Positions 2,826-9,730 of a stretch of DNA of 13,434 nucleotides are shown in pieces (within the stretch, counting starts at the first letter, position 1; every line of letters starts with the position of its first letter). Under the pieces are notes generated by a model that saw only the letters and a list, made by a program, of their open reading frames with translations, was not told the origin of the DNA and ran no database searches. Source of the stretch: an uncultured Porphyromonadaceae bacterium. Lineage in GTDB: Bacteria; Bacteroidota; Bacteroidia; Bacteroidales; Muribaculaceae. The translations under genes were made by a program, and so were the position numbers. Where the stretch lies: positions 1 to 13,434 of the forward strand of contig URQP01000076.1 of assembly GCA_900550025.1 (NCBI GenBank), given 5' to 3'.

Positions 2826-3425
2826 TTAATCCCACCATCCCAACAGATGATATTCTAAAAATCTAAAGAATAGACAATACGCTTTGCGAAAGCGAACTTC
2901 ATGCTTGCTATCAACTTCATACATCCCCGGCGATTTATGATAAACACAGAAGCGATGTTTGTTTCTCGTATTCACATAGGGGATAGGAACATCAGAATTC
3001 TCATTCATAATAATATCCAAAAGCTTTGTGGCAATCCGCATCCGACTGATATCTTGTTCCGCACGAGCTAAATGCCCAAAGTTCTCCCAGTAGAAAATAA
3101 TCCATTCTAATTTGAATTTCAACAGATTCAAGAAATAATGATAATCATAGTCCGGATTCTCATTTATGTACATTGCCCATATCCATAAGCGGTCTTGTCT
3201 TATACCCTTTTGATACACTCTCCATTCTTTTTCAGAGAGTCCCTTGCGAAGTATGAAGTGGAATCGCTCTGACCAAGTTTCATCATCATCCATTGGGTTC
3301 ACTTCCTTCTGATATAACGGATTTTCCCTCATGGACTTTTCCATATCCTGCACTTCTTTCCTTTTGACTTGTGCCCAATCTTGAAAATAGGATTGAGCAT
3401 CTGTATATTTCTTTTTCATTTGCAT
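2826..3425 (-). CDS. Hypothetical helical protein, last gene of the WYL operon
   Basis: I do not recognise this 199-residue protein. It has no signal peptide and no membrane segment. It is rich in aromatic residues and in charged helical segments. Features that stand out are LWIWAMYINENPDYDYHYF (about 80-98), an amphipathic helix EWIIFYWENFGHLARAEQDISRMRIATKLLDI across about 107-138, and a tail ending GWWD. The tail and the layout (helical pair, then a short C-terminal helix ending WWD) recall small uncharacterised proteins of phages and islands, which is an impression and not an assignment. It starts 6 bases after the WYL gene stop, so it is almost certainly in that operon and probably translationally coupled. 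ATG codons at 3425 and 3419 are both possible starts. Confidence 0.75.
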   Translation of the reverse strand: MQMKKKYTDAQSYFQDWAQVKRKEVQDMEKSMRENPLYQKEVNPMDDDETWSERFHFILRKGLSEKEWRVYQKGIRQDRLWIWAMYINENPDYDYHYFLNLLKFKLEWIIFYWENFGHLARAEQDISRMRIATKLLDIIMNENSDVPIPYVNTRNKHRFCVYHKSPGMYEVDSKHEVRFRKAYCLFFRFLEYHLLGWWD

Positions 3426-3431
3426 GTGAGA

Positions 3432-4337
3432 TTACTGTTTATTGTATAATGAACTCATTTTCTCCACAGATTGAATCATTTCTTCCCGAAAAGTTAAAGG
3501 AGCAAGCACTTCCACATCCGCCCCTCTTGAAAGTAATTCCTGCCGGAAGTCTAAGGTTGGTTTCATACGGTACTCAAAGATAGAATAATCTTCCGTTGTT
3601 TCTATTTCGCATTGGGAATGGTGCAAAGGCAAAGCACGGATATACTGTACATGCATTCCATAGACTTTAATCCGAATCGTTTCCAATTTCTTGTTTTCAA
3701 TCATAATGCCAAAATAATCTGTAAAATAGGCTTCCGGATCAAATTCTTTAGGATAAACAAACTTCGTGTCCAAAGTAGTCAGTTGCTGTATTCTATCCAA
3801 AGAAAAGGTGCGGATATTATTCCGCTCTTTGCAGAAACCAATGACATACCATCTTTGCTTAAATACTTTGATGCAATAAGGTTGCAGCGTATAGGTACTT
3901 GGTTCTTCGTACCAATAACTTTGATAATATAGCTCCAATTCTAACCCGTCACGCATGGCTTCAATAACAGACGTGAGATGTTTTCTGCCGGAAGGAATCT
4001 CTTCAAACAGAATCCTGCGTTTCAAATGATGGCTTTCGTTTATTAGGTTATTGACCGCAAACGTATTAAGCAACCAGTTGCGGATGCCTCCCTTTTGCAT
4101 ATCATCCGCATTCTCAATATAGTAGTAATAACCTCCCTTTCGGTTACAATTGATATTTATATCAAACACTTGTTCGATGGCAATGCGCCAGTTATGAAAG
4201 GTTCTTAATGGAATATCTTCCCCTTCACTCAATCGTGAACGAAGCCAACGCTCGTTGATTTCCTCAAACGTGATTTTTCCGGCTCTGTAGATAGTGTCTA
4301 CTAACCAGATGTATTTGTCAAATAAATCTTTTGTCAT
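3432..4337 (-). CDS. WYL-domain transcriptional regulator
   Basis: This 301-residue protein has the build of a WYL regulator: a winged-helix-like DNA-binding N-terminus (about 1-75, with IPLRTFHNWRIAIEQVF as the probable recognition part), a WYL domain (about 117-190) and a WCX-like C-terminal domain (about 215-290). The motif RWYVIGF at 162-168 and SLDRI at 179-183 are the family hallmarks. WYL domains are SH3-like folds that bind nucleic acid or nucleotide-like ligands, and they often repress or sense in phage-defence and DNA-damage contexts. It is the second gene of a three-gene operon, 36 bases behind the duplicated-domain protein and 6 bases ahead of the 199-aa protein. It is the most likely local regulator of the shared upstream boxes of this island, which is inference. 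Confidence 0.9.
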   Translation of the reverse strand: MTKDLFDKYIWLVDTIYRAGKITFEEINERWLRSRLSEGEDIPLRTFHNWRIAIEQVFDININCNRKGGYYYYIENADDMQKGGIRNWLLNTFAVNNLINESHHLKRRILFEEIPSGRKHLTSVIEAMRDGLELELYYQSYWYEEPSTYTLQPYCIKVFKQRWYVIGFCKERNNIRTFSLDRIQQLTTLDTKFVYPKEFDPEAYFTDYFGIMIENKKLETIRIKVYGMHVQYIRALPLHHSQCEIETTEDYSIFEYRMKPTLDFRQELLSRGADVEVLAPLTFREEMIQSVEKMSSLYNKQ

Positions 4338-4373: not shown

Positions 4374-5234
4374 CTATTTGAATAGTTTTTCAAGATGCCC
4401 TTGAATCATTTCTTCCGTTTCTCCGTAATAAGTGATTTCCCAAAGCAGTCCGGCGGTCAATTGTTGCGGCGTGATTATAATATCATATTCAATGATAATC
4501 CTCATGCTTAATATTTCCGACCATTTAGGATATGTTGCCATAGGTTGACATATTTCATCCTTATTTTTATCATAGATGGAACAATTCATATCAATCAAAG
4601 GCGAACACCCCTCCCAACGGGATGCCAAATAAATGCAATACTTTGACTTTGATGGTCCAAGTTGTTGAAGAGATTGATACACGTTTCGATAAGCTTCCCA
4701 ATTCGCGTTCTGAAACGATTTTGGTGCATTCCTTTGATACAAGGTCTTGAAATCGCTTAAGATATCATCAAAACAGAAACGTGTAAGCAAATACTTAAAG
4801 GTCAGATGTTCCAGATCAACATCCGTTAATCCATTACGCTTGTCATACGTAATCTCCCAAAGCAAGCCTGCAGTCAATTCTTCTAATGAAAGTGCAACAT
4901 TGCTATTGACAATGATTTCCATGCCTAAAATCTCTGACAGATAAGGATAGCTACCTATTCCCCGATAGTCGTAATCATTTCCATCTTCATAAAACAAGCA
5001 ACAGTTTGAACCTGTGAATTGTAACTCATCCCAACGTTCACTTATTTGAATAGCATACTTGGATTCACTTTCTTCTTTACGTGTTTGTAAGTCTTGATAT
5101 ACACCACGATAAATATCCCAATTTGTTTGTTCAAATAAGTCAGGTCTAACCTTCTGACATAAAGCTTTAAATTCAGGTAAGATGACATCAAAACTGAACT
5201 GAGTGAGCAAAGATTTGAATGTCGGTTGTTCCAT
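4374..5234 (-). CDS. Protein of unknown function with an internal tandem duplication (DUF6557-like)
   Basis: This 286-residue protein is made of two copies of one domain of about 125 residues, at about 6-131 and 146-270. Both copies run FK.LLT.F.FD.IL..FK.L, then NW..YR.VYQ.LQ, then SKY.I....RW, then YP..SEIL.M.I, and end LTAGLLWEITY. There is no signal peptide, membrane segment or catalytic motif that I can name. From memory the single domain resembles a family of small Bacteroidales proteins annotated DUF6557, which I could not verify. It is the first gene of the operon, and the promoter box at 5261-5286 lies 26 bases before the ATG. A role as a binding or immunity-type protein is possible but unproven. 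Confidence 0.85.
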   Translation of the reverse strand: MEQPTFKSLLTQFSFDVILPEFKALCQKVRPDLFEQTNWDIYRGVYQDLQTRKEESESKYAIQISERWDELQFTGSNCCLFYEDGNDYDYRGIGSYPYLSEILGMEIIVNSNVALSLEELTAGLLWEITYDKRNGLTDVDLEHLTFKYLLTRFCFDDILSDFKTLYQRNAPKSFQNANWEAYRNVYQSLQQLGPSKSKYCIYLASRWEGCSPLIDMNCSIYDKNKDEICQPMATYPKWSEILSMRIIIEYDIIITPQQLTAGLLWEITYYGETEEMIQGHLEKLFK

Positions 5235-5260: not shown

Positions 5261-5296
5261 CAAATATCGCATAAAGTTATGCCATATTAAAGCATA
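5261..5296 (-). promoter_or_regulatory. Shared upstream element of the WYL operon
   Basis: The minus strand reads TATGGCATAA, 8 bases, then GATATTTG (5286-5261), a close match to the Bacteroidota nAnnTTTG -7 box. The layout is the same 10+8+8 as at 5346-5371, 8675-8700 and 9695-9720. The further upstream TATGCTTTAAT (5296-5286) is shared in the same register with the 9695-9730 element. No TTTG stands at the usual 20-base spacing. Confidence 0.55.
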
Positions 5297-5345
5297 CACT
5301 GAAAAGATTTTGTTATCAGGAGAAAAAGGGTTTCTTGTGCTTCCG

Positions 5346-5371
5346 TTTGGCATAAGGTGAAGTTATTTTTG
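5346..5371 (+). promoter_or_regulatory. Shared upstream element of the 5399 gene
   Basis: TTTGGCATAA, 8 bases, then TATTTTTG, the last being a perfect TAnnTTTG box, 27 bases before the ATG. TTTG stands 14 bases before the -7 box, too close for a normal -33 element, so GGCATAA may be a binding site for a regulator. Confidence 0.6.
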
Positions 5372-5398
5372 CTACATCATTAAACAAATAATACGATT

Positions 5399-6193
5399 AT
5401 GGATTTATATGCAGAAGATTTGGCGGACTACATCTATCAAGAAAATGATGTGAACAAGAAACGGACATTGCTGTTGGAAGTGGAAGCGGAAATCAAGAAG
5501 CTTATGGGCGAACAGGAAAAAGGGAATCTTGATTTGAGGCATATAGGTGCAACACAGATAGAAAAGATACAAGATTTGATAGATACACGGAGCTTGATTC
5601 TTAACCGGATGTTTCAAGCTACTCCACAGGAAATCAAACGCTTTAAAGCAGTAAATGAATTGCTGAATAGTTTGACCAAGAAGATGTATCATCGCATGGC
5701 AAACCTCTATCGCACATTGATTAATAGCCCCAAAGATGAATCTTTTGATGACGATTATGTCATCCGTGGTACACTGAGGTATGTATTCTGTGGGTTGGAG
5801 TCTATATTGGAATTACCGGAAGATGGTTATTATGGTTCCGATTTTGCTTACATGATAGAACTAATTTGTTGTTGTTTGCTTGAAGAATGCAATGGGGGAC
5901 TTCCCGAAATCGAAGAATGTTCTTGTAATTATTCACCCAAAAACACTTCGAATATGACAGATGAACAGTTACAATGTGTGGATGTATGGGATGATGGAGT
6001 GACATGGGCGGAAGGGCATTTGCGCCGCCCGGAACTGGAGCACATTGTTGTATGTCATGCCATACACGACATTTGCACACACAAGCCTTATTCCCTTCCG
6101 GACTTATTGCGGCTAAATGATTTTTGGGTGGAAGCCCATCTGGTCTGCCAGCATATCATAGACCAAAACGGGAAACGCTATAACTCGGATTAA
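5399..6193 (+). CDS. Hypothetical protein, divergent from the WYL operon
   Basis: I do not recognise this 264-residue protein. It is acidic and helical, with no signal peptide and no membrane span. Notable parts are a helical N-terminal half with ATPQEIKRFKAVNELLN near 74-90, YVFCGLESILELPEDGYYGSDF near 128-149, a cysteine run ICCCLLEEC at 156-164 followed by more Cys at 174 and 176, and a conserved-looking C-terminal stretch WDDGVTWAEGHLRRPELEHIV then CHAIHDICTHKPYSLPDLL near 197-237. The Cys/His-rich character could hint at metal binding but no classic motif is formed. It is the only plus-strand gene of the island, it has its own perfect -7 box at 5364-5371, and it shares the GGCATAA layout with its neighbours. 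Confidence 0.8.
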   Translation: MDLYAEDLADYIYQENDVNKKRTLLLEVEAEIKKLMGEQEKGNLDLRHIGATQIEKIQDLIDTRSLILNRMFQATPQEIKRFKAVNELLNSLTKKMYHRMANLYRTLINSPKDESFDDDYVIRGTLRYVFCGLESILELPEDGYYGSDFAYMIELICCCLLEECNGGLPEIEECSCNYSPKNTSNMTDEQLQCVDVWDDGVTWAEGHLRRPELEHIVVCHAIHDICTHKPYSLPDLLRLNDFWVEAHLVCQHIIDQNGKRYNSD

Positions 6194-6326
6194 TCATTTG
6201 TTTTGCAAAGTGCCTGAAAGGTGGAGACATTGCCAAACTTTGTGCTCCACTTTTCCTCGCATAGTCCTCCTTGCCATGCGTGTCCGAAAATGCGAACAAA
6301 TGTTTTCCTTTATAGTCCAGTCTCAT
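6156..6326 (-). pseudogene. Truncated start of a calcineurin-like phosphoesterase
   Basis: An ATG at 6326 overlaps the stop of the 762-aa gene by four bases (ATGA), the typical junction of coupled genes. The first residues read MRLDYKGKHLFAFSDTHGK, and FAFSDTHG is the motif-I signature (D-x-H) of calcineurin-like metallophosphoesterases near their N-terminus. After about residue 19 the frame continues for 37 residues with nothing resembling the family (no GD, GNHD or GHTH motifs) and ends at 6156 inside the tail of the convergent gene. The simplest reading is that a full phosphoesterase gene once followed and was cut by a deletion or insertion near 6265-6275. A chance resemblance of a short segment cannot be excluded. 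Confidence 0.5.
6221..6254 (+). terminator. Hairpin terminator between convergent genes
   Basis: GTGGAG-ACA pairs with TGT-CTCCAC around one bulged G, giving 9 bp and an 11-base loop, followed by TTTT on the plus strand. It lies 27 bases after the 5399-6193 gene and would end that transcript. Confidence 0.55.
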
Positions 6327-8611
6327 TCGTATTTCTCCTGTCTTTGGCGATGTCGCTCCCAATAATCACGCTCCCATTGAATAATTTCTTCCGTTTCTTT
6401 CCAGTGCGAACAGGTCATCTCAATGAAACAGGGACAAAACACATCTGCCCAAGTCACTTGTGGGAACATCATCCATCCTTCCTTTTCTCTTATCTCCACA
6501 GGCATATCAAGCGTTTCACTCCAAGGCATAAGATTCATAACAACATCTTCAAGATCTTGGTGGACGTACTTTTTTTCACGGGAGCTATAAAGCCAGTAAT
6601 AGGTATAACCGCCTTCGCAAACAATACGGTCAATGCCTGTGTAGTGGAAATCTTCTCGTGAACTCATATCATCGAATGCGGATTTATACTTTTTCCATGA
6701 ATGTTCTTTCCATATTGGATAGCCACCTTCTTTTATCTTTGCTTTCACGTCACTCCAATTCAAGCAGCGCATATAATAAGAGAGTGGCAAGAATACGGGA
6801 TCAAACGAGGCTTCCGCGATGGGTGCGCATTTTTGTCCTTTGTTCCGTTTCAGCAAATAGTCAAGAAAGCCCAACTGGTCAAGGTTTATGATATTTTTCA
6901 TGCAAACCTTGGTCAATGCTGAGTATTGTGGATTCCAATCTACGTGATAAAGCTCCGGGTTGTCAGAACAGTCAAGTTGGGTAAGGCGATTATTTTTCCG
7001 GATATTCAATATCTTCAACTTGTTGCCGCGGCAAACCAGGCGTCCCAGTCTTGGATTTTTGGAAACATTCAAACGTTTCAATCCTTGATTGACACAATAC
7101 AAGTCGATAAGTATCGGACATTGCGTTACATCCAATGCTTTCAGTGTACACGCTTCGCAAGTGTAATGGAAAGAGGTGAGGGTATGAGTCTCATCACTTT
7201 TCAAGCAGATATGCCATTCTCCTTTTTTCACATACGTATGTTCCGCATGGATTTCTTCCCCTTTCTCATTGTTTATCTCTTCCACTTGTCCGTCACCCCA
7301 ATCTATCGTAAATTGGCAATCGCCATAACTGGTGAACAAGAATCCGCAAACGGATTTCTGCTCTTTGGCAGCAACCGTCATTCTTATCTCATCCTTTTGC
7401 TCGAACAATATCTTTTTCAAGCGACGGAATGAACAGCGAGCAGACAGAATTTCGTTTTTCGCTTCCTCTGAATCATGCTCATAAATCTTTCTATCAACAA
7501 TTTTGTGATAACATTCAAACGCTTTACGCAAATCCTTCTTCGTGCCAAGGCCCTGCTCATACATTCGTCCTATGTTATAATTGTCATTTGCCTGCTTATA
7601 ATAATAAAATGCTTTTTCCATATCGGGTGTGGTGCCTTCGCCTCGTTCATACATTCCACCCAGTTTGTACACATATTCTCCTGCCAAATAGCATTCCAAG
7701 GCTTTTTTGTATTCCTTACGTTCATAATAGACATCTCCAGCCCAACAAGCAGACGAGCCTCCCGTTTTCATCCCGATACCCGTCAACATATCCAACGCTT
7801 CTTGGTTGCCATTCTTAGCCAAATCAGATAGTAAACGAAGTGCATTCCTCGCGGAATACTCGTTTTTCTTTTCACATTCTGCCTCGTGATCTAACAACAA
7901 CCGGAACCAATCGGTATGCAACAATTCATGCTCATCTATCTGCAAGTCATAATATGGCTTCCTTTGTGGGCTTCGGTATTTGCTTTCCCAAATGCGAAGT
8001 AAATGGACAGCAGAACGGTAACAACCTTTCTTTGCCCTTACATAGAGTATTTTCACTACTTTATCTTTCACCTTTTGGGGTACATGAGGCGAATGGAGTA
8101 GATTTCCTATAACACAAACATCAAAAAAAGAATCATCTCCGCCGCTTTCTAATGCTTCTATATATAAGGACAATGCATGATTGAAGTCACATTTTAGGGT
8201 AAAGAACGATGACTGCTTGATTACGTGTTTGGCGGACGAACAGCTAACTATCGGAGTATACCATTCGGCAAGTTCTACCATTGCCTTAATATGTTTTTGC
8301 TTAGCAGCTTTTTCGTACCAATCAATCATTTTGCTGAAATCAGAGAAATCAGCTTTACATAATTCTGGTTTCCTTGACAAGTCTGACCAAAATATAGCTT
8401 TCTCAAAGTTGGAGTAATTTCTGACTACTGCTTCCGCTTCATGTACCATTTTATGGTAAAGCAGTTCTCCCATCTCGTATTGTGCATCAGCATTGCCTCG
8501 CCGGGCAATAGGTTCCAACAGTTGGGCAGCTTCATCATATCGTTTGCTCCGCTCCAATTCATCCAGTTGCTTTCGCAAACGTTTGCTCACAACATTGCTT
8601 TTCTTTTCCAT
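6323..8611 (-). CDS. Sel1-repeat / PKD-like / LRR-like fusion protein
   Basis: This 762-residue protein has several repeat modules and no signal peptide. Sel1/TPR-type helical repeats occur at about 20-55 (YDEAAQLLEPIARRGNADAQYEMG), 92-118 (MIDWYEKAAKQKHIKAMVELAEW) and 255-370 (LGGMYERGEGTTPDMEKAFYYYK and IGRMYEQGLGTKKDLRKAFECY are the clearest). A PKD-like beta-sandwich follows at about 408-475, with FTIDWGDGQ and HTYVKKGEWHICLK. Three or four Bacteroidota-style leucine-rich repeats come next, about 486-560 (LKRLNVSKNPRLGRLVCRGN, LTQLDCSDNPEL). The last 150 residues (WSDVKAKIKEGGYPIW, YTYYWLYSSREKKYV) match nothing I know. PKD and this LRR type are usually in exported proteins, so their joining to Sel1 repeats in a protein with no export signal is odd. 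It lies behind the 8713-9597 gene, with terminator and promoter overlapping in between. Confidence 0.85.
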   Translation of the reverse strand: MEKKSNVVSKRLRKQLDELERSKRYDEAAQLLEPIARRGNADAQYEMGELLYHKMVHEAEAVVRNYSNFEKAIFWSDLSRKPELCKADFSDFSKMIDWYEKAAKQKHIKAMVELAEWYTPIVSCSSAKHVIKQSSFFTLKCDFNHALSLYIEALESGGDDSFFDVCVIGNLLHSPHVPQKVKDKVVKILYVRAKKGCYRSAVHLLRIWESKYRSPQRKPYYDLQIDEHELLHTDWFRLLLDHEAECEKKNEYSARNALRLLSDLAKNGNQEALDMLTGIGMKTGGSSACWAGDVYYERKEYKKALECYLAGEYVYKLGGMYERGEGTTPDMEKAFYYYKQANDNYNIGRMYEQGLGTKKDLRKAFECYHKIVDRKIYEHDSEEAKNEILSARCSFRRLKKILFEQKDEIRMTVAAKEQKSVCGFLFTSYGDCQFTIDWGDGQVEEINNEKGEEIHAEHTYVKKGEWHICLKSDETHTLTSFHYTCEACTLKALDVTQCPILIDLYCVNQGLKRLNVSKNPRLGRLVCRGNKLKILNIRKNNRLTQLDCSDNPELYHVDWNPQYSALTKVCMKNIINLDQLGFLDYLLKRNKGQKCAPIAEASFDPVFLPLSYYMRCLNWSDVKAKIKEGGYPIWKEHSWKKYKSAFDDMSSREDFHYTGIDRIVCEGGYTYYWLYSSREKKYVHQDLEDVVMNLMPWSETLDMPVEIREKEGWMMFPQVTWADVFCPCFIEMTCSHWKETEEIIQWERDYWERHRQRQEKYE

Positions 8612-8649
8612 ATTCTTCCGGTTTTAAGTTACACATAGGAAAAACAAAA

Positions 8650-8685
8650 CCTCATCTTTCCATCCATTTCAATGCAAAGATGAGG
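8650..8685 (-). terminator. Terminator after the 8713-9597 gene (overlaps next promoter)
   Basis: On the minus strand CCTCATCTTT (8685-8676), 16 bases, then its perfect complement AAAGATGAGG (8659-8650), followed at once by TTTTGTTTTT. This is a typical rho-independent terminator, 27 bases after the stop of the UDG-like gene. Its left arm is part of the element at 8675-8700. Confidence 0.78.
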
Positions 8686-8700
8686 TAAAGTTATGCCAAA
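8675..8700 (-). promoter_or_regulatory. Shared upstream element of the 762-aa gene
   Basis: The minus strand reads TTTGGCATAA, 8 bases, then CATCTTTG, ending 63 bases before the ATG. It has the same 10+8+8 layout as the elements at 5261, 5346 and 9695. The nAnnTTTG part is also the left arm of the terminator, so a transcript starting just downstream would lack that arm and escape termination. Confidence 0.55.
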
Positions 8701-8712
8701 GTGGTTCACAAG

Positions 8713-9597
8713 TTATTCTTTCTTTAATAGCTTGTCGATGTTTTCTTTAATGTCGGCAAGGATGGCATCGTAAAGTTTCCAATGAAATGCATTCGCATCT
8801 TTGGGTGAATACCCGGGATGATGGGTTAAGTAAGCAGATTTAACTCCTTCGAGTTGCAGCTTCGATACATCGCCTATTGGAAGACCTGAAAGTGCAATCG
8901 GTTCACCTATGACATTAAAGTTCTCTTTGATATAGTTACAATACTTTGTCTCTTTGGGGCCGGTAAGGAAGATGACAATGTCGGGTCTCAATATTTCAAT
9001 TTCTTTCGGAATAACATGAAAACATTTCTTTTCAATGCTATGCTCAAACGCATTGACAGCTTCCCCTCCTTCTCCTTTTCGTTTAGATAGTTTGGAAATC
9101 TCATTCCATATTAATGAAACTCGTTTGTCGGGGAAATCCTTTAATAACTCCCTAATACCTGACATTATTCCATTAACGCCAAAAAGGAGGAATCTATTTC
9201 TATGGTCTATTTTCTCTTTATAAAAATGTGCATCTACAGCATTATAATTATCATCGAGATAATCTTCATATGTAGCCATAACCTTGCCTACATCGGCTGG
9301 GTCTTCACCTTTTTCATCATATCTCACCCACCAATTGGGTTCCCTCCCAAAGAACATAATTTTTATGTCTGCTTTGGTATACCACTCTTCATGCTCAGCA
9401 TCTGCTTTCTTTGCATACCAATTAATATCTGCTTCTTGTGCTTTTTCTCGTTCTTCCTTTTCTTGCCCAGAACGATACAAAGAAATCAAGAACGGACATT
9501 GCAGTTTGTCTCGTAACCCATTGGCTTCCAGTTGTTCCATTAATCCGTTCCACTTACTTTCGTAAAGTTCGGTCAATTGCTCTGATAATGTTTCCAT
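8713..9597 (-). CDS. Uracil-DNA-glycosylase-superfamily-like protein
   Basis: This 294-residue soluble protein shows the three landmarks of the uracil-DNA glycosylase fold in the right order. IMFFGREPNWW at 80-90 is a motif-A-like segment after the first strand, DIVIFLTGP at 206-214 is a central strand and loop, and YLTHHPGYSP at 256-265 is a motif-B-like HP segment. A charged helical N-terminus (1-75, many Glu/Lys) precedes them. The catalytic Asp or Asn of true glycosylases is not obvious: GREPN has Glu and Asn where GLDPG-type enzymes carry Asp, so it could be a divergent enzyme, a binding protein, or inactive. It stands alone at the right end of the island with its own promoter and terminator. 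A role in acting on modified bases, for example of phage DNA, is speculation. Confidence 0.6.
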   Translation of the reverse strand: METLSEQLTELYESKWNGLMEQLEANGLRDKLQCPFLISLYRSGQEKEEREKAQEADINWYAKKADAEHEEWYTKADIKIMFFGREPNWWVRYDEKGEDPADVGKVMATYEDYLDDNYNAVDAHFYKEKIDHRNRFLLFGVNGIMSGIRELLKDFPDKRVSLIWNEISKLSKRKGEGGEAVNAFEHSIEKKCFHVIPKEIEILRPDIVIFLTGPKETKYCNYIKENFNVIGEPIALSGLPIGDVSKLQLEGVKSAYLTHHPGYSPKDANAFHWKLYDAILADIKENIDKLLKKE

Positions 9598-9630
9598 AAA
9601 CGTATATTTTAAAGTGGATGAATTTTAAAA

Positions 9631-9638
9631 CAAATATA
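9631..9638 (-). promoter_or_regulatory. Nearest -7 box of the UDG-like gene
   Basis: TATATTTG on the minus strand is an exact TAnnTTTG match, 33 bases before the ATG. No TTTG is found 19-21 bases upstream. Confidence 0.5.
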
Positions 9639-9694
9639 GCGAATCCCCCCAAGAAAGTTTTCATTCTCAATAAGAAACGCAATCTCTTTTGTCG

Positions 9695-9730
9695 CAAAGT
9701 TCTGTCAAGGATATGCAACATTAAAGCATA
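9695..9730 (-). promoter_or_regulatory. Shared upstream element before the UDG-like gene
   Basis: The minus strand reads TGTTGCATAT, 8 bases, then GAACTTTG (9720-9695), preceded by TATGCTTTAAT at 9730-9720, in the same register as in the 5261-5296 element. It ends 97 bases before the ATG, so either it is a second, upstream promoter or it is only a regulator site. Confidence 0.45.

Follow-up and report, generated by a model that had tools for sequence, protein, structure and literature searches.

What do four promoters with one shared sequence layout have in common, and what reads them? The question is raised by a genomic island in a 13,434-nucleotide (nt) stretch of contig URQP01000076.1 from an uncultured Porphyromonadaceae bacterium (hereafter the window), in which one gene encodes a WYL-domain transcription regulator. 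A preliminary description of this DNA had pointed out that the genes starting at 5234, 5399, 8611 and 9597 are all preceded by a 26-base plan, a GGCATAA-like block followed, after eight variable bases, by an nAnnTTTG box. We found that this plan is the downstream part of a larger element whose geometry is fixed and conserved among relatives, which accompanies one subfamily of WYL proteins and whose operator changes in another subfamily. Very probably, this layout combines operator and promoter for the WYL factor encoded in the island itself, a factor that would activate transcription by the primary sigma factor, including that of its own operon.

A two-armed element at four promoters

The four sites were recovered at the positions first reported:

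Site 1: 5261-5286, minus strand, TATGGCATAA..GATATTTG
Site 2: 5346-5371, plus strand, TTTGGCATAA..TATTTTTG
Site 3: 8675-8700, minus strand, TTTGGCATAA..CATCTTTG
Site 4: 9695-9720, minus strand, TGTTGCATAT..GAACTTTG

Taken alone, a one-arm pattern like the one described (GGCATAA-N9-AnnTTTG) is a weak signal: at up to two mismatches it occurs five times in the window against 1.83 expected, and 9 of 200 shuffles reach five. GGCATAA belongs to a dyad, TRTGCY-N7-GGCAYA, as its right arm, and a mirror-image left arm stands upstream at all four sites; the 26-base layout is real but incomplete, the second arm of every site having been overlooked. The 36-base element TRTG-N10-GCATA-N10-nAnnTTTG has four exact matches in the window, which are exactly the four sites; 0.03 were expected, none of 200 shuffles reaches four, and no extra match appears at one mismatch. 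A chance origin of the four sites was rejected on this count, with the qualification that the pattern was formulated post hoc from the sites, so that its evidential weight rests on the comparison with relatives. The core TATGC-N9-GCATA is matched with 0, 1, 2 and 0 mismatches at sites 1 to 4, respectively; allowing two mismatches, eight matches are found in the window against 5.81 expected, the four outside the sites being at chance level. The -7 boxes at 8675 (CATCTTTG) and 9695 (GAACTTTG) deviate from TAnnTTTG. The component features are as follows, where L numbers denote loci of relatives:

5278..5296, minus strand: dyad of site 1, TATGC-N9-GCATA, TATGCTTTAATATGGCATA; kept in L001, L002, L003 and L063
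5261..5268, minus strand: -7 box of site 1, GATATTTG; 26 nt upstream of the DUF6557 gene's ATG at 5234
5336..5354, plus strand: dyad of site 2, TGTGCTTCCGTTTGGCATA; orthologous sites in L001-L003
5364..5371, plus strand: -7 box of site 2, TATTTTTG; 27 nt upstream of the ATG at 5399
8692..8710, minus strand: dyad of site 3, TGTGAACCACTTTGGCATA, with a weak left arm and two mismatches; kept in L001-L003
8675..8682, minus strand: -7 box of site 3, CATCTTTG; upstream of the gene at 8611
9712..9730, minus strand: dyad of site 4, TATGCTTTAATGTTGCATA; kept in L003 and L063
9695..9702, minus strand: -7 box of site 4, GAACTTTG; 97 nt upstream of the ATG at 9597

Two sites overlap further inverted repeats. 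A perfect one, CCTCATCTTT-N16-AAAGATGAGG (8650-8685), overlaps the -7 box of site 3, extends into the leader and is largely kept in L001-L003; judging by its sequence, it could form a hairpin in the 5' leader. At site 1, an inverted repeat at 5263-5288 spans the right arm and the -7 box, with arms AATATCGCATAA and TTATGCCATATT that are 92% complementary, and its core is also found in L001-L003.

A single geometry across relatives

A protein database search with the window's WYL protein returned 4425 relatives at an expectation value (E) of 1e-10, of which 120 were listed. An alignment of 14 WYL sequences that includes the window's (A1), used to search a genome collection, then gave the comparison set, the best 80 of 155 confirmed loci, whose WYL proteins share 56-98% identity with that of the window. 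Their record titles are mostly Bacteroidales, with exceptions such as L032 and L068/L069 ('uncultured bacterium').

Across the 80 loci and the window, exact TATGC-Nx-GCATA dyads occur 25 times at x = 9 and 0-5 times at any other x from 0 to 20. Within 40 nt after these 25 dyads, nAnnTTTG is found 21 times at offset 9 and 4 times at all other offsets combined; with one-mismatch dyads, the count is 56 at offset 9 and at most 4 at any other. When only TGC, GCA and TAnnTTTG were fixed and spacer and offset were both varied, 63 unique sites fell into a single cell of the 168-cell grid, whereas the other 167 cells held at most 4 (mean 0.51). Both features of the geometry known from DriD-type operators, two arms separated by N7 and a constant distance to the polymerase box, are thus present.

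The consensus CnTRTGCYnYnnTTTGGCATA-N9-TAnYTTTGC rests on 130 sites, each with no more than two mismatches, from 69 of the 81 records, a set that leaves out window site 3, which has more mismatches. Conservation lies mainly at element positions, and the C at -2, the TTTG at 10-13 and the C after the box are conserved though they lie outside the selection pattern. Four position pairs covary between the arms above shuffles: (2,20) in 77 of 86 pairs against 71.3 expected, (1,21) in 34 against 24.9, (3,19) in 42 against 34.5 and (8,14) in 33 against 28.6.

Genes downstream of the element

The element clusters ahead of the regulator's gene. Of 127 sites in the 80 loci, 81 lie within 2.5 kb upstream of the WYL start and none in the following 2.5 kb. 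A same-strand site is present less than 200 nt before the WYL gene in 31 of the 80 loci and 200-3000 nt upstream in a further 31, while 12 have none anywhere. The distance from -7 box to start codon is mostly 15-60 nt. The 126 open reading frames (ORFs) of at least 60 amino acids (aa) that follow the sites, picked mechanically and perhaps not all genes, form 47 sequence clusters: WYL (31), an AAA+ ATPase of ~565 aa (13), a 264-aa family (7), RtcB (6), DUF6557 (5) and others.

These counts bear on whether the four promoters are alike merely through duplication inside the island, with no common regulator. Sites 1 and 4 have a longer stretch, TATGCTTTAATRTKGCATA, in common, as duplication would leave; yet the same element precedes 47 ORF clusters in 69 of 81 records, with conservation mainly at element positions, and we rejected this explanation as extremely improbable. 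In the other island copies (L001, L002, L063 and L003, the last from Bacteroides caecigallinarum) the elements are kept at orthologous places while the flanks vary, and for this reason the four units probably form one regulon, as had been suggested. That they may also form one system, as further suggested, does not follow: because the downstream ORFs fall into 47 clusters, a shared site indicates a shared switch rather than a shared pathway.

Genome-wide distribution

In the 19 genomes behind 20 of the loci, a set that is not independent of the motif, 79 elements were found at up to one mismatch, with 1-10 per genome and every genome represented, against 3 matches of a reversed-pattern control. 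This frequency, in genomes that all carry the WYL gene, is not that of a general housekeeping promoter, which answers in part the check that the preliminary description had called for.

An even sample of 247 genomes of the order comprised 40 with a WYL relative at E <=1e-60 (close), 74 with weaker relatives only (distant) and 133 with none at 1e-10. Perfect sites numbered 17 in 13 of the 40 close-WYL genomes, 2 in 1 of the 74 distant-only genomes and 1 in 1 of the 133 genomes without WYL (Fisher's test, p = 6.8e-10). At least three of the 40 (G002, G015 and G106) had also supplied motif loci; without these three, the contrast was 10 of 37 against 2 of 207 (p = 1.1e-7). With the three included, 22 of the 55 sites in close-WYL genomes lie within 6 kb of a WYL gene, compared with ~0.3 expected. 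A weight matrix scored 19 of 40 regions upstream of close WYL genes above 12 bits, a cut set after looking; when each region was shuffled three times and its best shuffle counted, 2 of 40 passed. One-mismatch sites numbered 38, 25 and 30 in the close, distant-only and no-WYL groups. A plasmid collection yielded one weak WYL match, and a phage collection yielded none.

The operator changes with the WYL subfamily

Five of 40 rtcB upstream regions (L156, L161, L164, L183 and L188) have, in the same frame, a stretch that resembles a different kind of dyad, some of them lying beside more distant WYL genes, and this led to a test by subfamily. Regions upstream of 20 distant WYL genes (set A) contain nine CG[AC]C-N7-G[GT]CG (CGMC) dyads. 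Seven of these, spread over five of the 20 loci, have an nAnnTTTG box downstream at offset 11, and no dyad has one at another offset from 5 to 19. Offset 11 is also that of the window-type sites: in the 80 close loci, TGC[CT]-N7-GGCA (TGCY) has 61 unique sites at this offset and 0-2 at each other offset from 5 to 19, whereas CGMC has none. At offset 11 the ratio of TGCY to CGMC is therefore 61:0 in the 80 close loci and 0:7 in the 20 distant loci (p = 1.0e-9). Twenty further stretches, counted with one that proved misplaced and siteless (L268, at the far end of an AAA gene rather than upstream of a WYL gene), yielded CGMC sites in three stretches, one in each; all three sit at offset 11, and 21 other offsets are empty. 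With spacers from 4 to 12, one CGMC dyad occurred at spacer 10 and none at the other non-7 spacers. Each of 14 looser distant-type sites (CGNC-N7-GNCG) lies 10-37 nt before an ORF, and judged by first residues and length these ORFs include five WYL proteins and four AAA ATPases.

The proteins differ at the place expected to contact DNA. A putative recognition helix reads [RK]TFHN[WH] in 10 of 10 close proteins, whereas proteins of the set A type all read RT[FL]xRD (RTFQRD in 7 of 10; RTLQRD, RTFLRD and RTFKRD in one each), and four rtcB-linked WYL proteins differ again. From these sequences we infer that this helix reads the operator; the Protein Data Bank (PDB) matches of a distant WYL protein leave its helix-turn-helix (HTH) uncovered. 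The operator type goes with the WYL subfamily at an unchanged distance from the polymerase box, and this is the main ground for naming the WYL protein as the probable binder.

An agnostic palindrome score at fixed geometry is only suggestive: at the offset predicted, set A has five hits, against 0-3 at the others; a further distant group (set B) has two, level with two other offsets; and the validation set has three, level with one other. A third dyad type, ACTACGCA-N7-TGCGTAGT, occurs between or beside rtcB and a further WYL subfamily (L156, L183, L188, L223 and L233); its -7 box offsets are mixed (3, 11, 12, 17 and 18), and it is at present anecdotal. Among the matches listed, at least 8 of 82 rtcB matches have a WYL match within 3 kb.

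Promoter class and mode of action

The primary promoter of Bacteroides thetaiotaomicron has elements at -7 (TAnnTTTG in Bacteroides fragilis) and -33 (PMC7366714). The box at our sites agrees in appearance with a Bacteroidota -7 box, the identity first proposed for it, and GGCATAA, rightly held not to be a -33 box, is the right dyad arm. With the -7 box centred on -7, the arms lie at about -39 to -35 and -25 to -21 and flank the -33 place. A -33 TTG ending 18-21 nt before the box occurs at 8 of 77 elements compared with 83 of 343 other -7 boxes of the same loci (p = 0.009), a moderate depletion; the element's own TTTG ends 14 nt before the box (39 of 77).

Two promoter classes were tried and rejected. 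The canonical sigma-ABfr promoter of Bacteroides, with TTTG ~19-21 nt before TAnnTTTG, has the -7 box in common; at the element, however, the -33 TTG is rarer and TTTG stands 18-21 nt before the box in only 4 of 77 cases. Sigma-54 promoters have GG and GC 10 nt apart (-24/-12); our elements have a conserved GG at columns 13-14 but no conserved GC at 24-27 (<=0.12 bit).

Alternatively, and in our view very improbably, the link to WYL is indirect, and the element serves an alternative sigma factor as promoter or is bound by some other regulator whose gene lies elsewhere. Such an origin would accommodate the perfect site in 1 of the 133 no-WYL genomes, the two in one distant-only genome, and the 33 of 55 sites in close-WYL genomes that lie more than 6 kb from any listed WYL match, many on other contigs. 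But the -7 box is the one described for the primary sigma factor (PMC7366714), the operator type follows the WYL subfamily at constant geometry, and the commonest target is the regulator's own gene (31 of 80 loci). Of the two readers of GGCATAA that the preliminary description had considered, a WYL regulator and another sigma factor, we retain the first, which is favoured by co-distribution, clustering upstream of the WYL gene, the operator change with subfamily and the identity of the second operator core with that of DriD, and find the second unsupported.

The WYL protein itself has the architecture of WYL transcription factors, an N-terminal winged HTH ahead of WYL and WCX domains. The latter two exceed the Pfam cut-off; no HTH family matched, but the predicted model (mean predicted local distance difference test score (pLDDT) 70.6, predicted template modelling score (pTM) 0.45) places helices at 2-19, 24-33 and 44-58 and strands at 62-65 and 71-74 ahead of the WYL domain. 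Its PDB relatives are PafBC and DriD, the DriD match being limited to residues 159-293. R162, W163, Y164, R176, D181 and R182 are among the residues invariant in the 14 aligned WYL sequences, which is consistent with a putative nucleic-acid ligand in the WYL groove.

On the reading that we favour, a WYL homodimer would bind the 19-21 bp dyad TRTGCY-N7-GGCAYA with its arms flanking the -33 place and would hold primary-sigma RNA polymerase at promoters that have a good -7 box and mostly no -33 box, as DriD, SiwR and PafBC do. Site 1 would drive the DUF6557-WYL-199 aa unit, so that the regulator amplifies itself, and through sites 2, 3 and 4 the switch would reach three further units. What triggers it is probably a nucleic acid bound in the groove of the WYL domain, for example single-stranded DNA or RNA damage products. 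We infer several parts of this scheme, namely that the WYL protein is the binder, that it dimerises, which ligand it takes and that it activates and does not repress; in favour of an activator docked on the polymerase is the one distance kept across two operator types, as docking requires.

The same protein could bind the same dyads and repress, covering -39 to -21 and blocking the polymerase until a ligand releases it. BrxR and CapW are WYL regulators with a repressor role, and the window protein's fold matches to them equal those to DriD and PafBC; the dyad, moreover, overlaps the core promoter, including that of the regulator itself. A repressor, however, needs no exact distance to the -7 box, yet one distance prevails (63 sites against at most 4) and persists after the operator change; the -33 TTG is rarer than at other boxes, and the second operator core is the same as that of DriD, an activator. 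We therefore regard repression as improbable, and activation by the WYL factor remains our preferred reading.

Several observations weigh against that reading. The 80 loci were picked for carrying the WYL gene, and there are several near-duplicates among them (L033/L035; L059, L061, L062 and L065). Arm-to-arm covariation is modest, the other three tested pairs being at shuffle level. In the order sample, 19 of the 40 close-WYL genomes have no site at up to one mismatch, and many close WYL genes have no recognisable site: only 10 of 40 upstream regions pass 25.7 bits, the 5% point of the training sites. Some siteless regions look, from their sequences, like further variants, such as GCTGC/GCAGT (L120) and ACTGC/TCAGT (L146). 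The order sample is noisy at one mismatch, with 113 sites in total against 31 reversed-pattern matches and a site in 26 of the 133 no-WYL genomes; given this ratio, one-mismatch sites outside the close-WYL group are largely background. The operator swap is not perfectly clean, as one window-type site (one mismatch) lies ~1.2 kb upstream of a distant WYL gene (G057:C85). Set B has no CGMC dyad, and strict CGMC sites are absent from 15 of 20 set A loci and 17 of 20 validation stretches. In a test on the upstream regions of 40 of the 82 rtcB matches, the predicted TRTGC element preceded rtcB in only 1 of 9 close-WYL genomes (G223), with 0 of 31 among controls. A stricter -33 test with TTTG was non-significant (4 of 77 against 38 of 343, p = 0.14). 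Finally, the WYL model is only of moderate quality (pTM 0.45), and its predicted fold matches BrxR and CapW as well as DriD and PafBC (VIA-align, Foldseek); because all four match alike, fold comparison cannot separate activator from repressor.

The island and recurrent neighbours

The island, at ~2.5-10 kb of the window, has 36-44% G+C in 1-kb windows compared with mostly 53-60% in its flanks. A tRNA-Leu gene (2599-2683) adjoins its start, and this tRNA-Leu border (2597-2760) is common to L063. Its genes are:

2826..3425, minus strand: 199 aa, without Pfam family; closes the probable site 1 operon
3432..4337, minus strand: WYL regulator, 301 aa, with an N-terminal HTH-like region, WYL (Pfam 3.1e-19) and WCX (1.5e-10)
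4374..5234, minus strand: 286 aa, DUF6557 (two stretches, 5.5e-20); first gene of the site 1 unit
5399..6193, plus strand: 264 aa, no Pfam family over cut-off; the family has the element upstream in 7 of 81 records
6323..8611, minus strand: 762 aa, Sel1 repeats and an internalin-type match far under cut-off; site 3 unit
8713..9597, minus strand: 294 aa, weak uracil-DNA-glycosylase-like match under the curated cut-off (E 0.055); site 4 unit

The gaps between the 286-aa, WYL and 199-aa genes are only 36 and 6 nt, and site 1 therefore probably drives all three. PADLOC returned matches on the island for the WYL protein only. The 199-aa protein aligns at 34% identity (50 of 148 residues) with a DprA-like protein of L069, in the C-terminal part of the latter, and the element also precedes the gene of that protein. 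For the 264-aa family, the predicted fold (mean pLDDT 87, pTM 0.85) had no PDB match with E <=0.001; invariant polar residues in 24 sequences (for example, E29, R64, E78, R105, D118, D119, D142, D148, D199, H223, D235 and R238) suggest an enzyme.

In the flanks of the 81 records, recurrent neighbours are, as raw occurrences without a background rate, an AAA ATPase (26), an RNase T-type exonuclease (20), a metallophosphatase (14), the 264-aa family (11, including the window) and RtcB (10). The commonest neighbour of the WYL family is thus a 570-aa AAA+ ATPase (L020:8246-9958 and relatives), in 26 of 81 records; in the order sample, at least 16 of its 33 matches lie within 3 kb of a WYL match, and by its gene arrangement the pair looks like a two-gene module. 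Among 30 selected target or neighbour proteins, Pfam families include RtcB, AAA, PDDEXK_4, PLD, Metallophos, RNase_T, HAD_SAK_2 (the HAD of RNA-repair proteins), bpMoxR, tubulin-like, DNA_processg_A and GmrSD, and three proteins have no family.

Relation to known systems and significance

Three WYL activators offer comparisons. The consensus of DriD, a single-stranded-DNA-sensing activator of Caulobacter crescentus, is ATACGAC-N7-GTCGTAT, at a fixed distance from -10 and over the -35 region (PMC12340889). Our system likewise has a WYL-WCX regulator, a two-arm N7 operator over the corresponding region and a constant distance to the downstream box, and the distant Bacteroidales subfamily has the same core, CGAC-N7-GTCG. 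It differs in its half-site: in place of DriD's ACGAC/GTCGT, the window subfamily has TRTGCY/GGCAYA, a departure that the distant subfamily, with CG[AC]C/G[GT]CG, does not share. It differs also in its Bacteroidota -7 box, its largely accessory targets and its low sequence similarity. SiwR of Mycobacterium smegmatis is a homodimer on a 19-bp imperfect palindrome between -35 and -10, where a -26 region is needed for induction (PMC10693628). Its palindrome resembles ours in length and in its place between promoter elements, but SiwR is described as acting on one neighbouring operon, whereas several units per genome, often including the regulator's own, carry the element here. Mycobacterial PafBC, an example of sigma adaptation, is placed between sigma domain 4 and the DNA at a -26 motif with the housekeeping polymerase, and alone, without polymerase, it does not bind promoter DNA (PMC11804915). 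A WYL activator acting with the housekeeping polymerase at such a position may, by analogy, be what we see; PafBC, however, is a heterodimer, whereas here there is one WYL gene and a two-armed dyad. The motif PM2 of B. thetaiotaomicron is near-palindromic with elements near -10 and -30, but its published description attributes to it 75 genes enriched for oxidative stress, against 1-10 sites per genome here, a comparison made by description and not by letters (PMC7366714).

No Bacteroidota WYL operator was described among the literature matches listed on WYL proteins and Bacteroides promoters or palindromes and on DriD operators, although reports elsewhere are possible. What appears to be new, as read from sequence, is a form of WYL control that resembles DriD's but uses a new half-site code, is placed on Bacteroidota promoters and has links to accessory and RNA-repair genes.

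We see about an even chance that Bacteroidales hold parallel WYL switches, each with its own half-site code (TRTGC, CGMC and perhaps ACTACGCA by rtcB) and all with one primary-sigma docking geometry, as in DriD, which mobile islands would join by way of a ready-made promoter. The targets would then suggest a response to nucleic-acid damage or phage, a Bacteroidota counterpart of the SOS-independent damage response; this role is suggested because targets and neighbours include RtcB, an RNase T-type exonuclease, an RNA-repair HAD, AAA+ and other NTPases, and PD-(D/E)XK and GmrSD-type nucleases. The element provides a sequence code and an exact promoter geometry for Bacteroidota WYL regulators, by which islands of unknown genes would become members of a named regulon and regulons could be predicted from sequence. 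The activation mode of DriD would thereby extend to a phylum whose primary sigma factor and -7 box are different.

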